A stretch of DNA of 36,933 nt from Candidatus Amesbacteria bacterium (lineage in GTDB: Bacteria; Patescibacteriota; Microgenomatia; CAZETR01; Amesbacteraceae), in the NCBI GenBank assembly GCA_016219445.1, contig JACRNA010000030.1:1-36933 (forward strand), given 5' to 3'. Positions 3,135 through 21,155 of this stretch are shown here, piece by piece. The notes under the pieces were generated by a model. The model ran no database searches. It was not told the DNA's origin and was given only the letters and a program-made list of their open reading frames with translations. Both the position numbers and the translations under genes were made by a program. Numbering within the stretch: position 1 is the first letter of the stretch; every line of letters begins with the position of its first letter.

Positions 3135-3924
3135 GAGCTGGATACTTGGTAACTTGCCAATATTTGATGTAAGCAATAGCAAAGCGAAGACCTGAAAAGA
3201 GAGCAAAAACAAAACCCGGAAAGCCATCTACATAGCCACGGTGGCGAAAATATATCATCAAAAATGTTGATAAAGGCTTGAGAAAGAGATAGTGAAGAGC
3301 TGGTATTAGACCTAATTTTTCTTTTTGTTCCTGCATTTGCTCGGCCATCAAACTGGTATACTTATTATTGCGGACGAGATAATTTTCAAAGTCCGGTGTG
3401 CCGTAATGCAACATGGGATTTTTCAGATACCTTACTTCTCCCTCGATAATTGCTTGCTCGTGCACGTCACGTGCTTCCAAATTACCTTTGCCATTTCTAT
3501 ATAAACGCATGGTGTAATCAGGATATTGCCCGCCTTTTTCCAAAAATCTTCCCAAAAAATAGTTTTTGCGCGGAATCCAATATCCATTCACCTTCGCGGA
3601 GTCCAATCGGCCACCTCGGAGGTGGTCTTTAATTTCATTGACCAACTCAGGGGTTAAGCATTCGTCGGCATCCAGTTGGAGAATCCACTCGCCACGGGCA
3701 GAATCTATGGCTAACTTTTTCTGAGCATGAAAGTGAGTGGGATTATTGTCGACCAATATAATCTTGGCTTTATATTTTTTGGCGATTTTGACAGTATCGT
3801 CTGTGGACTTGCCATCCACAATTATTATTTCATCTGCAAAATCTTTAACTGCATCCAAACATCTGGCGATATTTCTCTCTTCATTGTAGGTAGCAAGGAC
3901 TACAGACAGTTTAATTTTAATCAT
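3127..3924 (-). CDS. GT2 glycosyltransferase, WaaE/KdtX-like
   Basis: A 265-residue GT-A enzyme: LSVVLATYNEERNI at the N-terminus, IVDGKSTDDT (residues 35-44), LQLDADE (82-88, the metal-binding DxD) and a C-terminal LPRKN-type acceptor region (IPRKNYFLGRFLEKG, then RLYR and VHEQ). This order matches the group containing the LPS-core beta-glucosyltransferase WaaE and similar bacterial GT2s. The C-terminus (RHRGYVDGFPGFVFAL) has membrane-associated helices. It probably makes a lipid-linked glycan on the cytoplasmic face. It is the first gene after the intergenic stretch carrying the first DUF3800-associated RNA, and overlaps the next gene by 8 bases. Compared with the paralogue at 20403 it has a short extra segment around DHLRGGR, encoded by the palindrome at 3611-3625. 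Confidence 0.88.
   Translation of the reverse strand: MIKIKLSVVLATYNEERNIARCLDAVKDFADEIIIVDGKSTDDTVKIAKKYKAKIILVDNNPTHFHAQKKLAIDSARGEWILQLDADECLTPELVNEIKDHLRGGRLDSAKVNGYWIPRKNYFLGRFLEKGGQYPDYTMRLYRNGKGNLEARDVHEQAIIEGEVRYLKNPMLHYGTPDFENYLVRNNKYTSLMAEQMQEQKEKLGLIPALHYLFLKPLSTFLMIYFRHRGYVDGFPGFVFALFSGLRFAIAYIKYWQVTKYPAHD
3611..3625. repeat. Perfect palindrome in GT2 CDS
   Basis: Arms CCACCT and AGGTGG with a CGG centre. It encodes the LRGGR stretch, which looks inserted relative to the paralogous GT2 at 20403-21155. Confidence 0.6.
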
Positions 3925-4046
3925 GATTTATCTATTTTACTATTTATATTCAAGTAAATGACGATATTAGTATCTAATTTGGTAGTGAATATTTTTTGAA
4001 TTTCATTGATTTTTCTGCCAGTAGTGTCTATTGATATCTTTATACT
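3925..4046. other. A+T-rich intergenic stretch with no recognised gene
   Basis: This 122-base stretch lies between the GT2 start and the small-RNA promoter. No convincing ORF, hairpin or repeat was seen. It may hold the leftward promoter for the GT2 gene, for example TAAAAT-like boxes near 3930-3940, but no paired -35 is convincing. Confidence 0.5.
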
Positions 4047-4075
4047 TTGCATAATTTCTTATTTACTGATATACT
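4047..4075 (+). promoter_or_regulatory. Sigma70-type promoter of DUF3800-associated RNA 1
   Basis: TTGCAT (4047-4052), a 17-base spacer and TATACT (4070-4075) on the + strand. Only one or two bases of each box differ from consensus. The predicted start is about 4082. It faces away from the surrounding leftward operon. Confidence 0.7.
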
Positions 4076-4081
4076 TATATC

Positions 4082-4166
4082 AAATCCAACCGAAAAGCTA
4101 ATCGTACAGGTGAGTTTTTTCGACTTGTCGAGAATAGGTTGTCCCCCCTCGAAAGAGGGGGTTTTT
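4082..4166 (+). ncRNA. DUF3800-associated small structured RNA, copy 1
   Basis: An RNA of about 85 nt is predicted between the promoter at 4047-4075 and the terminator at 4144-4166. Visible pairings: closing stem CAACC (4087-4091) with GGTTG (4137-4141); inner hairpin 4117-4134 with a CUUG-type tetraloop at 4124-4127; then the terminator hairpin with a GAAA loop. No ORF of useful length is present. The 3' end touches the stop codon of the convergent DUF3800 gene. Copy 2 at 7831-7925 has the same order of elements and shares the blocks ACC, AAA-(G)-GCT, CAGGT and GAG in the same order. Candidate structured RNAs called DUF3800 motifs are known near genes of this family from comparative genomics. 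Whether this RNA belongs to one of those classes is not tested here. Confidence 0.65.
4144..4166 (+). terminator. Intrinsic terminator of RNA 1
   Basis: A 7-bp stem CCCCCTC / GAGGGGG with a GAAA tetraloop is followed by five T. It is oriented on the + strand only; leftwards the hairpin is not followed by a T run. The T run overlaps two bases of the DUF3800 TAA codon (4165-4167). Confidence 0.88.
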
Positions 4167-4740
4167 ATACCTCATAAAGAACCCCCTTCTTGATAGCACG
4201 ATTAAAGATAGTCTTATATTCGATGCTCTCATTTTCTAAAACATCTCTAATAAACCCACATGAACTATCGGCAAACCTAATCATCGGATTATTTTCATCT
4301 TTTTTTACACCCTTAACCTTTTTTGTATGTATTCCAAGATGTCGTATCTGAGTACCGTAATATTTTTCATCTTTTTTACTTAATCCGTCTATATAAATAC
4401 TAAATACTTTTTTAGTATAATCAGGTAAAGTATTTATTGATTTAGCAATCGTAAGAATAGTTGAACTCTTATAATCTCTCGTATCAGTATAATGGGAATA
4501 ACAAATGCGCAAGCTCACATTTTTCTGATTAAATATCTCACCAATAAATGCTAATTTTTGTTTTATTCCTGATCTACCCCATTTTAACTTTCCCTTACCA
4601 CTGGAAATCTCAACCCTAGTCAACGCCTCAGATAATTTATCTTGCAATTCGGCAGTAATTATTACTGAAACAACAAATATTTTACCACTTGTATCTTGTC
4701 CTGTTTCGTCGACATAACAATATATTTTTTTAGATAGCAT
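4165..4740 (-). CDS. DUF3800 protein (predicted RNase H-like fold), copy A
   Basis: 191 residues. The N-terminus KIYCYVDETGQDTSG carries the family hallmark DE (Asp11, Glu12). IYIDG follows at 115-119 (Asp118), and PMIRFADSSCG near 152-162 (Asp158). These acidic residues, spread over beta strands, fit the RNase H-like fold assigned to DUF3800 (Pfam PF12686); function is unproven, but a metal-dependent nuclease is a reasonable inference. The start lies 7 bases after the stop of the upstream GT-C gene with no clear ribosome binding site, so it is probably translated from the operon mRNA. Its 3' end is tail-to-tail with small RNA 1. Copy B (7927-8475) is clearly related but strongly diverged. 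It is out of place in a glycan locus and may be a mobile or selfish unit. Confidence 0.88.
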   Translation of the reverse strand: MLSKKIYCYVDETGQDTSGKIFVVSVIITAELQDKLSEALTRVEISSGKGKLKWGRSGIKQKLAFIGEIFNQKNVSLRICYSHYTDTRDYKSSTILTIAKSINTLPDYTKKVFSIYIDGLSKKDEKYYGTQIRHLGIHTKKVKGVKKDENNPMIRFADSSCGFIRDVLENESIEYKTIFNRAIKKGVLYEV

Positions 4741-4747
4741 AATAAAT

Positions 4748-7809: not shown

Positions 7810-7824
7810 AAAAGCATATATAAT
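7797..7824 (+). promoter_or_regulatory. Perfect-consensus sigma70-type promoter of DUF3800-associated RNA 2
   Basis: TTGACA (7797-7802), a 16-base spacer and TATAAT (7819-7824), both exact consensus, on the + strand. Predicted start is about 7831. The -35 box lies over the first codons of the leftward GT-C gene. Confidence 0.85.
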
Positions 7825-7830
7825 AAAGAG

Positions 7831-7925
7831 TAACAAGTTACCAGGGACAAAGGCTCAGGTCGGCCGAGATCACAAATGAGTGATCTACTTGGATGACTGA
7901 CCCCGGTCGCAAGCCGGGGTTTTTT
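7831..7925 (+). ncRNA. DUF3800-associated small structured RNA, copy 2
   Basis: An RNA of about 95 nt is predicted between a consensus promoter and an intrinsic terminator. Visible structure: a possible small 5' hairpin GTAA/TTAC (7830-7841); closing stem CCAGG (7841-7845) with CTTGG (7888-7892, one G-U); an inner 7-bp hairpin AGATCAC / GTGATCT (7867-7886) with a 6-base loop; then the terminator. The element order matches copy 1, and ACC, AAAGGCT, CAGGT and GAG blocks recur in order. The sequence between the stems otherwise differs. It occupies essentially the whole gap between the DUF3800-B stop and the next gene, is antisense to the operon mRNA, and has no ORF. Function is unknown; partnership with the adjacent protein is inferred from repeated co-occurrence. 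Confidence 0.7.
7900..7925 (+). terminator. Intrinsic terminator of RNA 2
   Basis: Stem ACCCCGG / CCGGGGT with a 7-base loop, followed by a run of T that includes the last stem base (7920-7925). It ends one base before the DUF3800-B stop codon (7927-7929 on the - strand). There is no T run in the leftward direction. Confidence 0.88.
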
Positions 7926-7926
7926 A

Positions 7927-8475
7927 TTATATTGATGACTCATATATCAACTTTTCATTCAAAATCTTTTTAACTAAGATTGAAGTCTCTTCCATAGACG
8001 GGTTATCATAATAATACCTCATTAATCCCGCTAATCCATCGGCTACTCTTAATCCCGGAAAAGACCTATCGTTCCCCGTTCTGAGTTTTTTTACTGATAC
8101 TCCTCTTTTTCTAAGATTAACCTTTATTCTGGATGAATACCATTTAGGTTTTTTCCCATCAATGATGATGTGATTTATGTGCTTTTCTATTACAAAAGAT
8201 TGAATTATTGTCTCAAATTTTTGGGAAATATTTGAAGGATTAATTAATTTACATGATTTAAATTCGAATTCTAATTTAGATATTTTGTTAAGGAACTTTT
8301 TTCTATTCACCCATCTCTCGTCTGCCCAATGAAAATAATTAATCCCCATTTTCTTTTCAATTTCCAACACTTGGCTATTAAATCTTTCCGCATTCCTTAT
8401 TTGCAGATACACAAAAACCACACTTGTATGTCCTGATGTTTTGTCTATTCCAGATTCATCAATAAAAACAATCAT
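7927..8475 (-). CDS. DUF3800 protein (predicted RNase H-like fold), copy B
   Basis: 182 residues beginning MIVFIDESGIDKTSG, with the DUF3800 DE pair at Asp6-Glu7. HIIIDGKKP follows around 102-110 (Asp106), then RTGNDRSFPGLRVADGLAGL (Asp146). Spacing of the acidic residues parallels copy A (11/12, 118, 158 there). Basic stretches such as SRIKVNLRKRG could bind nucleic acid. The ATG overlaps the stop of the upstream GT-C gene as ATGA, so translation is probably coupled to it. Downstream is the convergent small RNA 2. Known family members are uncharacterised; the nuclease activity is inference. Overall similarity to copy A is low outside the motifs, so this is not a recent local duplication. Confidence 0.88.
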   Translation of the reverse strand: MIVFIDESGIDKTSGHTSVVFVYLQIRNAERFNSQVLEIEKKMGINYFHWADERWVNRKKFLNKISKLEFEFKSCKLINPSNISQKFETIIQSFVIEKHINHIIIDGKKPKWYSSRIKVNLRKRGVSVKKLRTGNDRSFPGLRVADGLAGLMRYYYDNPSMEETSILVKKILNEKLIYESSI

Positions 8476-18293: not shown

Positions 18294-19402
18294 GATACTC
18301 TCATTTTTAACACTGTAACAACACTCGTTGCTGCAAATATTGCCCTGCATATCGAGATTATATTATCAGGTATAAAAGTGTAAAAGGATAAAAGTATAAC
18401 AGTGGATACACAAAATAAAACTAATATTGGAAATTTCGTTTTTATTTTTTGAGCTATAAATATGATTAAAAGAATGCTCACCCAAGTAAACCATTGGGGA
18501 TGCCAATTGGTAACTGAATAAAATAGTAATAAAATAGCTGTAAACCAGCCCCATGTTAGCAATTGTTGTGGCTTGTACCAATTCCACCAATAAAGCAAAA
18601 GAATACCTAGCCAAAATAGTGATATGTATTGTGAACCGGAAACCAATATTTTGGCATAGTCCAATTTATCAGTCTGACTGGCAAGAAGTGCATAGTGCTT
18701 GAAAGCGATAGATCTTAAATAGGGGCTAATAATTAGTCCATAAGTAGCAAGACCTGCCAATATTGAAATTATTTTTTCTTTTAAATTTTTCCCCAGTATT
18801 GGTAACAAAAATAAAGGGAACGGTTTAAACCCAGAGGCTACTCCCAGTAGGACGGCCGAAAAATATGACGACCTCTGGGCAACTAATGCAGCAATGGCCA
18901 CTAAATAGCCTATCAAAATATCAAATTGTCCCATGGCATACGCGGAGTATAGAATTACAGGATTCAGGGCACAGAAAATCAAGATTGATTTTTTATATTT
19001 TGAATCCGACAGTTTGTATATTGCAAATACCAAGACTGCCTCAAGAATCAAATAGGGAGCTTTCAACATAAATAATAGGTAGTTCCATGATGGCATTTGT
19101 TTGGCAATTTCTGCTTCATTTAATAAGGCTACTAGTGTGGTAAATGGATAAACTGGTGAAGTTAGACTCATAAATAGACCGTGAACCCAATAAGCTAGTG
19201 GTGGATATATAAACAAGCCATCGGTAAATATCTCGACCCACCTATCATCACGTGGTTGTCTACTCAGGTAATCATAAAACTGGGTTACCTGATTTTTTTG
19301 AGAAATTAGATAGCCCCCCATTCCCATGGCCCGAACATCAGGATGATAGGCGATAGGCATAAGTACAAAACGCAAGATAATTCCCAATATTATAAATATC
19401 AT
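18290..19402 (-). CDS. GT-C membrane protein, GT87/DUF2029-like
   Basis: 370 residues. The first loop has AYHPDVRAMGMG (Asp22), then IYPPLAYWVHG and YAMGQFDILIGYLVAI (MGQFD at 157-161), corresponding to the WGQxD motif of GT87-like enzymes. A late NWHPQWFTW replaces the HERY motif. About nine hydrophobic segments. It probably transfers a sugar from polyprenyl-phosphate on the outer face; it may equally be an uncharacterised GT-C relative. ATGA overlaps both up- and downstream show tight coupling. It contains an octamer array at 18371-18402 near the C-terminus, encoding LSFYTFI. Confidence 0.72.
   Translation of the reverse strand: MIFIILGIILRFVLMPIAYHPDVRAMGMGGYLISQKNQVTQFYDYLSRQPRDDRWVEIFTDGLFIYPPLAYWVHGLFMSLTSPVYPFTTLVALLNEAEIAKQMPSWNYLLFMLKAPYLILEAVLVFAIYKLSDSKYKKSILIFCALNPVILYSAYAMGQFDILIGYLVAIAALVAQRSSYFSAVLLGVASGFKPFPLFLLPILGKNLKEKIISILAGLATYGLIISPYLRSIAFKHYALLASQTDKLDYAKILVSGSQYISLFWLGILLLYWWNWYKPQQLLTWGWFTAILLLFYSVTNWHPQWFTWVSILLIIFIAQKIKTKFPILVLFCVSTVILLSFYTFIPDNIISICRAIFAATSVVTVLKMRVS
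18371..18402. repeat. Degenerate octamer array, unit TATAAAAG (4 copies)
   Basis: Units TATAAAAG, TGTAAAAG, GATAAAAG, TATAACAG. Near the 3' end of the GT87-like gene. Confidence 0.75.
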
Positions 19403-20430: not shown

Positions 20431-21155
20431 AATCTGGCATAAATAACAAACATATTAAATACCTGAAATATTCCGTCAATTATGCCCTCTACCCCATCTC
20501 TCCAAGCTTGGAGTTTTATAAATCTGTGCCAAAATTCTGTCAACATTACTCTACATAATCTCCAAGATACGACAGCTGGATGATTTGACTTTAGCCTAAG
20601 ATCTGATTCGTAACCAGTAAATAATAAAGTTTTCTCCAACATGGATTCCAAATCGCGGTGAGAGAAGTGCACCAATGAATTTTCCAAATCTCCAATTTCA
20701 CCTTCTACCATAGGTTGTTCGTGTAAAGCATGTTCATACCCCCGTAATTTTTCCTTTTTGTAAAGTCGTACAACTTTGTCGTTTCCCCAACCACCAAATT
20801 TCATTTCTTTTCCCAAATAAAAATTTCGACGGGGAAGTCTATATGCCGAAAATAAACTATCTGTACAAATTATCTGCTCAATTTCCTGTGCGAGTAATGG
20901 AGTTACTCGTTCGTCAGCGTCAACATACAATATCCAGTCCCCCTTAGCAGACTTTAAGCCATCGTTTCTAAAGTTGTTGTAACCAGAACCAGGCTGAGAC
21001 TTAACTATTTTTGCTTTGAAACCCTTGGATATAATATTGGTCTTATCAGTATTGCCGGTATCAACAACAATTATTTCATCTGCAAATTTAAGTGAGATTA
21101 GGCAATCCTCTATCATTGTTTCTTCATTCAAAGTGATGACAATTGCGCTAAGCAT
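20403..21155 (-). CDS. GT2 glycosyltransferase, WaaE/KdtX-like
   Basis: ATG at 21155 (MLSAIVITLNEE) was chosen over an in-frame TTG at 21170; an AAAGGAT sequence a few bases upstream is one of the few good Shine-Dalgarno sites here. 250 residues. VDTGNTDKT (31-39) and YVDADER (77-83, DxD), then LPRRNFYLGKEMKFGGWG and ALHEQ. This is the same layout as the GT2s at 3127 and 22053. Likely role: sugar addition to a lipid-linked core on the cytoplasmic face. The C-terminus has the RDGVEGIIDGIFQVF membrane-associated helix typical of the group. The upstream gene ends 4 bases before the start. Confidence 0.88.
   Translation of the reverse strand: MLSAIVITLNEETMIEDCLISLKFADEIIVVDTGNTDKTNIISKGFKAKIVKSQPGSGYNNFRNDGLKSAKGDWILYVDADERVTPLLAQEIEQIICTDSLFSAYRLPRRNFYLGKEMKFGGWGNDKVVRLYKKEKLRGYEHALHEQPMVEGEIGDLENSLVHFSHRDLESMLEKTLLFTGYESDLRLKSNHPAVVSWRLCRVMLTEFWHRFIKLQAWRDGVEGIIDGIFQVFNMFVIYARLWEAQIAKR

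Follow-up and report, generated by a model that had tools for sequence, protein, structure and literature searches.

A convergent RNA and DUF3800 gene

On the forward strand of the 36,933-nt stretch of Candidatus Amesbacteria DNA that we analysed (the window), a small RNA is predicted to run from a start at 4082 to the end of its terminator T-run at 4166, and it scores 56.3 bits against R2, a refined covariance model of its type. The predicted promoter occupies 4047-4075, with a -35 element TTGCAT (4047-4052), a 17-nt spacer and a -10 element TATACT (4070-4075), and most homologues have a similarly spaced promoter. A palindrome, GATATACTTATATC, lies at the -10 and could support transcription in both directions. 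Facing this RNA, a gene on the reverse strand (4165-4740) encodes P0001, a 191-aa DUF3800 protein with a predicted RNase HII-like fold, and its stop codon overlaps the T-run of the RNA.

The first-pass annotation had described a domain closed by CAACC/GGTTG, holding an internal CUUG hairpin and followed at once by a C5/G5 terminator, and a check of the letters found every one of these elements in place. The closing stem, P1, pairs CAACC (4087-4091) with GGTTG (4137-4141), just before which lies a conserved UA (4135-4136). The CUUG hairpin, P3 (4117-4134), contains seven pairs, including one G-U, between 4117-4123 and 4128-4134. In the intrinsic terminator (4144-4166), a seven-pair stem (C5UC/GAG5, 4144-4150 with 4155-4161) carries a GAAA loop and leads into five T at 4162-4166. 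As a picture of the closed domain the description was incomplete: it had overlooked a second arm, P2 (4096-4116), in which AGCU/AGUU and AUC/GGU pair around an A-G mismatch beneath a GUACA loop, and which is also absent from the minimum free energy (MFE) fold. The distance of about five bases that had been claimed between the RNA start and the first closing-stem pair agrees with the five-base leader that follows from a start at about 4082, and 5-6 nt is the commonest leader length in a set of 27 RNAs (26 of this type plus the DUF3800-II RNA of the window). The homologues also support the claim that there is no free guide-like extension at either end, with a short leader, a P1 kept by compensatory changes, and a terminator that follows directly or, in some relatives, a P1 that runs into the T-run.

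Folding of both strands and comparison with homologues had been proposed as checks. The forward strand gave a fold z score of -3.31, with none of 200 shuffles equally stable, and the reverse strand gave -1.47 in the same shuffle test. The terminator is well above chance (one found, 0.1 expected), and the promoter of this RNA taken alone is not (one found, 1.9 expected); over the set of 27 RNAs the promoter score averages 9.3, as compared to 6.2 for shuffles. The MFE fold lacks the CUUG hairpin, which is present in the homologue-supported fold. At -27.5 versus -29.6 kcal/mol, the latter is costlier by 2.1 kcal/mol, so the case for a three-way junction rests on homologues and not on energy.

Relatives of P0001 in other genomes have a recognisably similar RNA at the matching place, the exception being a degenerate gene (L018) that has none. 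In an alignment of 12 homologues, CCGAAAAC precedes the closing strand and UAGG stands at it. P1 is paired in all 12 sequences, with three of its five pairs changed on both sides, and it was paired in 18 of 18 after six sequences had been added. P3 varies freely in length and sequence among homologues yet stays paired (71% of cells), and all six counted pairs are changed on both sides; P2 shows weaker covariation than P1 and P3, its support coming mainly from kept C-G, U-A and C-G pairs together with some changes. Both arms were proposed by hand and then tested for covariation. Across the whole structure 44 cells were changed on both sides, as compared to 17.6 in shuffles, with none of 500 shuffles as high, and slid structures fell far below the true one. 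Compensatory stem changes, which the annotation had made the test of its structure, are present. From this covariation over the whole structure, we conclude that the RNA is a three-way junction, in the order P1, GAAA linker, P2, P3, UA, P1'.

RNAalifold recovered P1 only when run on alignment A4, which was not fitted to the covariance model; alignment A6 was so fitted and leans towards it. In both, the P2 of L003 is shifted out of register, and the final alignment excludes a 13.5-bit chance match at position 19031 of the window. A hand-made three-way-junction descriptor matched 25 of 50 loci and 279 of 3000 random stretches in its first version, and 28 of 50 and 112 of 3000 in its second, which also matched five of 50 on the opposite strand; it is a weak test. 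It misses the RNA of the window, which is found by the covariance models, and 14 of the 50 loci had originally been found through their RNA.

P0001 matches DUF3800 (PF12686) at 25.5 bits, above the gathering threshold of 21. The AlphaFold2 model of P0001 (pLDDT 90.9, pTM 0.88) has RNase HII (1eke_B) as its top structural neighbour, with Z 12.7 and an rmsd of 2.9 Å over 154 aligned residues, and lower-Z matches include RNase HI (9.8), Argonaute (9.7) and integrase folds. Six acidic residues (D11, E12, E44, D118, D148 and D158) are invariant among 14 P0001 homologues. In the structural alignment, residue 1 of archaeal RNase HII lies opposite residue 5 of the model, so D11-E12 would fall on D7-E8, which are catalytic in the archaeal enzyme. 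P0001 shares with RNase HII a DExG at the first strand but has GQD in place of the GRG motif. A profile comparison (hhalign) of the P0001 family with RNase HII found no link (probability 0.1%), and Pfam RNase_HII (PF01351) did not match P0001 at E<=0.001. On its model, then, P0001 would be RNase HII-like by fold and not by sequence profile. Otherwise, the one PADLOC match, to DUF3800_VII, is weak (17.6 bits), NCBIfam and PHROGs returned nothing convincing, and searching by sequence found no solved structure for this protein.

These observations can be set beside published ones. One study, which analysed a TPR-DUF3800 protein with AlphaFold2, likewise reports an RNase H fold, one that shows a catalytic rearrangement, and for the link between DUF3800 and putative noncoding RNAs it refers to earlier work (PMC10910872). 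A CRISPR review counts DUF3800 among the RNase H-fold accessories (PMC12669027).

No RNase HII was found in the genome of the window or in a genome of the same genus (G001), and a third DUF3800-bearing member of the family has only part of it, which suggested that the DUF3800 protein might replace RNase HII. We rejected this idea: about half of the class sample also lacks RNase HII, and the enzyme is present in 19 of 35 RNA- or DUF3800-bearing genomes and in 80 of 157 class-sample genomes (Fisher P 0.85, for overlapping sets).

RNA types and their partner proteins

Rfam 15 (4227 models) gave only chance matches to 4082-4166 (E 3.2 and 9.8). The DUF3800-II model, RF02961, did not match it at the gathering cut-off (43.2 bits) or at E<=10, and Rfam did not match the RNAs of the same type at homologous loci. 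The first-pass annotation had labelled this RNA copy 1, which is only loosely right: in the genome no second copy of the 4082-4166 type scored above chance, and the other RNA of the window (7830-7902, forward strand) belongs to a distinct type that is already known, DUF3800-II (RF02961, 61.5 bits). The second RNA is convergent with a second DUF3800 gene (7927-8475, reverse strand), which encodes the 182-aa P0002 (33.4 bits against PF12686). Like the DUF3800-II RNA, the RNA at 4082-4166 is convergent with a DUF3800 gene, folds as a three-way junction with an adjoining terminator, and has a purine-rich linker before P2 and a UA before the closing strand; it differs in its shorter closing stem, in its conserved strings and in having partner proteins of a separate clade. 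Judged from sequence, it is a new family, unmatched in Rfam, within the known DUF3800-associated RNAs, of which Weinberg et al. (2017) are said to be the source.

We surveyed for this type from the RNA side with two covariance models. With R1, built from the RNA domain without its terminator, we searched 373 class genomes and found 17 RNAs, spread over 14 of them. All 17 are next to DUF3800 coding sequence (intact at 12, decayed at five), the six that were absent from model building included. R2, run over 379 genomes of the phylum, found 10 RNAs in nine genomes; nine of these RNAs, in eight genomes, were new to the survey. Four of the new RNAs adjoin an intact DUF3800 gene (L112, L113, L114 and L118) and two a broken one (L111 and L115), and no DUF3800 gene of their own was detected for L116, L117 and L119; at L117 the nearest DUF3800 gene lies 530 nt off and is accompanied by an RNA of its own. 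The L114 RNA is identical to that of L003, one of the sequences behind the model, and so does not count as independent. When both surveys are combined (373 and 379 genomes), 23 of 26 RNAs adjoin DUF3800 sequence, intact or decayed. From the protein side, a DUF3800 profile search had matches in 27 of the 379 phylum genomes. All 22 protein-found loci that were read downstream of the stop codon have, by eye, a convergent promoter and a small RNA (L132 among them repeats L003). Altogether the protein-first tally stands at 35 of 35 loci by eye, of which programs also detected 28, and covers the 22 phylum loci (with L132, repeating L003, not counted twice), 13 intact protein-found loci and L003. The RNA at 4082-4166 is thus of the DUF3800-associated kind, a noncoding RNA adjoining a DUF3800 gene in many genomes.

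Several further RNA types appeared at the surveyed loci. For example, in one type the T-run begins directly after the closing stem (L136, L139, L140, L147 and L159, assigned by eye), and another has an extra hairpin (L013-L016, L133, L134 and L137); L148-L150 are of the DUF3800-II type, and none of the types other than DUF3800-II matched Rfam. On a quick tree of 48 DUF3800 proteins, with RNA types taken from models and in part by eye, seven changes of type are required, where the minimum is six and the shuffled mean 27.3; scored by itself, the type of the 4082-4166 RNA requires five. The DUF3800-II partner proteins form one fully supported clade that includes P0002, and P0001 groups with proteins whose RNAs share the type of its own. 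On this sequence comparison, the type of an RNA goes with the clade of its protein. The DUF3800 tree does not track bacterial families: its clades mix families and, for some RNA types, classes, as expected from horizontal transfer.

Two loci of the DUF3800-II type depart from the usual layout. On contig 3 of G016, two tandem RNAs (L097/L110) lie by one DUF3800 gene, the second scoring 37.9 bits, below the cut-off. On contig 40 of G203, an RNA over the cut-off (L105) has no DUF3800 gene detected nearby.

Cassettes and empty sites

The two RNA-gene pairs of the window lie in two insertions 3.7 kb apart. The insertions measure about 820 and 650 bp, and neither contains more than one RNA and one clear gene. 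Cassette 1 extends over 3925-4747 (823 bases, with limits set by comparison with relatives whose site is unoccupied) between a PMT-family gene and a family-2 glycosyltransferase gene. In G001 the PMT gene ends at 20525 and the next gene starts at 20530, the cassette being absent from an otherwise intact junction, and the flanking genes are also adjacent in G005, G010 and G011. As several relatives are empty here, gain in the lineage of the window is the simpler reading. G002 and G009 carry other sequence at this junction, so inserts may simply be tolerated there. Cassette 2 spans approximately 7810-8474, with its right end uncertain by about 20 nt, and is likewise missing at an intact junction in G001.

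At junction 1 of G008 (L090), a short self-complementary insert lies where the glycosyltransferase gene begins. A 43-aa open frame (3921-4052, reverse strand) occupies the far end of cassette 1; it has no match in Pfam, and its stop codon overlaps the start of the next gene. At L117, two RNA types and a partial copy of one RNA surround one DUF3800 gene (positions 1-2000 of that locus), and on either side stand the copies of a direct repeat, 165 nt of a host gene (92% identical, 1557 apart); this is a cassette caught in a duplication. One scan of viral contigs with A1 gave seven pattern matches and no relative.

Two insertions, both at junctions that relatives have intact but unoccupied, along with a patchy spread in which DUF3800-II RNAs occur in six of the 14 genomes carrying the 4082-4166 type in the class survey (0.56 expected, P 3.5e-6), might come from a minimal mobile element whose RNase H-fold protein and RNA carry out their own insertion, with the RNA helping to recognise DNA. 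We consider such an element unlikely. No terminal inverted repeats or target duplication were found at either insertion (though some element types lack both, and the ends are known only to within some bases), the adjacent D-E of the putative active site is RNase HII-like and not like that of known transposases, and the loops of the RNA measure only 4-5 nt. The longest exact matches between RNA and insertion sites are no longer than chance for shuffled RNAs, and on these grounds the guide hypothesis was rejected. A self-moving ribonucleoprotein, in which an RNase HII-like enzyme and a guide-free structural RNA would insert their own 0.6-0.8-kb cassette at gene junctions, is in our view quite unlikely. 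TnpB/omega-RNA and IS110 bridge RNA elements similarly join an RNase H-superfamily protein and a nearby noncoding RNA in one compact unit. The omega-RNA of TnpB carries a variable 3' guide, whereas at 4082-4166 the terminator directly follows the closed domain, there are no guide-sized loops and no complementarity to the site, and the protein is a DUF3800 protein.

Proposed role of the RNA

We consider it probable instead that the RNA at 4082-4166 is one half of a compact mobile two-gene ribonucleoprotein cassette, made up of an RNase HII-like DUF3800 protein and a convergent RNA with its own promoter. The pairing of RNA and DUF3800 gene, the RNA structure, the convergent layout, the presence or absence of cassettes at intact junctions and the co-inheritance, which is to be expected of neighbours anyway, are all established by comparing genomes. 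Within such a cassette, a three-way-junction RNA of 60-85 nt would be transcribed towards the DUF3800 gene, and RNA and protein would form a ribonucleoprotein. The RNA would be its structural partner and not a guide, because it has neither a variable unpaired tail nor a guide-sized loop.

Within this ribonucleoprotein the RNA might, we suggest tentatively, bind and restrain the nuclease in the manner of an RNA antitoxin, as part of a toxin-antitoxin or defence module. For function we infer this kind of restraint in preference to guiding, with the remaining probability left to other roles, such as activation of the enzyme by the RNA. The DUF3800 gene is broken or undetected at 10 of 26 RNAs, and no examined intact DUF3800 gene lacks its RNA, which fits, weakly, an antitoxin-like RNA that must not be lost first; the gene is about seven times longer than the RNA and is hit more often, so that the survival of the RNA may reflect length only. 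Type III toxin-antitoxin systems such as ToxIN resemble the cassettes in combining a small endonuclease-like protein with a small structured RNA and in their patchy, mobile distribution. Their RNA antitoxin is a set of tandem repeats that precedes the toxin on a shared transcript, whereas the RNA at 4082-4166 is single, has no repeat array, and is transcribed convergently from its own promoter on the opposite strand. The partner protein differs as well, having an RNase H fold, which to our knowledge ToxN does not.

That the RNA acts mainly in cis on the convergent gene, through transcription interference or antisense pairing with a read-through DUF3800 mRNA, is very unlikely: it would account for the strict tail-to-tail layout, in which the T-run overlaps the stop codon and any transcript of the gene that continued past its end would be complementary to the whole RNA, but antisense pairing needs no conserved three-way junction, no CGAAAAC and UAG strings and no compensatory changes, and the RNAs persist where the DUF3800 gene has decayed. 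That 4082-4166 is only a transcription terminator with chance pairing upstream can hardly be right, for although the terminator is its strongest single element, promoter scores exceed those of shuffles across the family, structure is conserved upstream of the terminator, and in the class survey the model without a terminator finds nothing but DUF3800 neighbourhoods.

Passages of four publications that mention DUF3800 (PMC10910872, PMC11701678, PMC7657543 and PMC12669027) contain no functional test of a DUF3800 RNA. DUF3800 RNAs are already catalogued, and to these the locus adds empty sites, several further RNA types and an RNase HII-like partner. It also offers a clean system, in which a very small RNA of an Rfam-unmatched family accompanies a nuclease modelled with high confidence, with two insertions and their empty-site controls in one operon. 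With a protein of 191 aa and an RNA of 85 nt, the effect of the RNA on the enzyme is directly testable. As DUF3800 proteins accompany some CRISPR systems, according to PMC10910872 and PMC12669027, an answer would reach further than this family.
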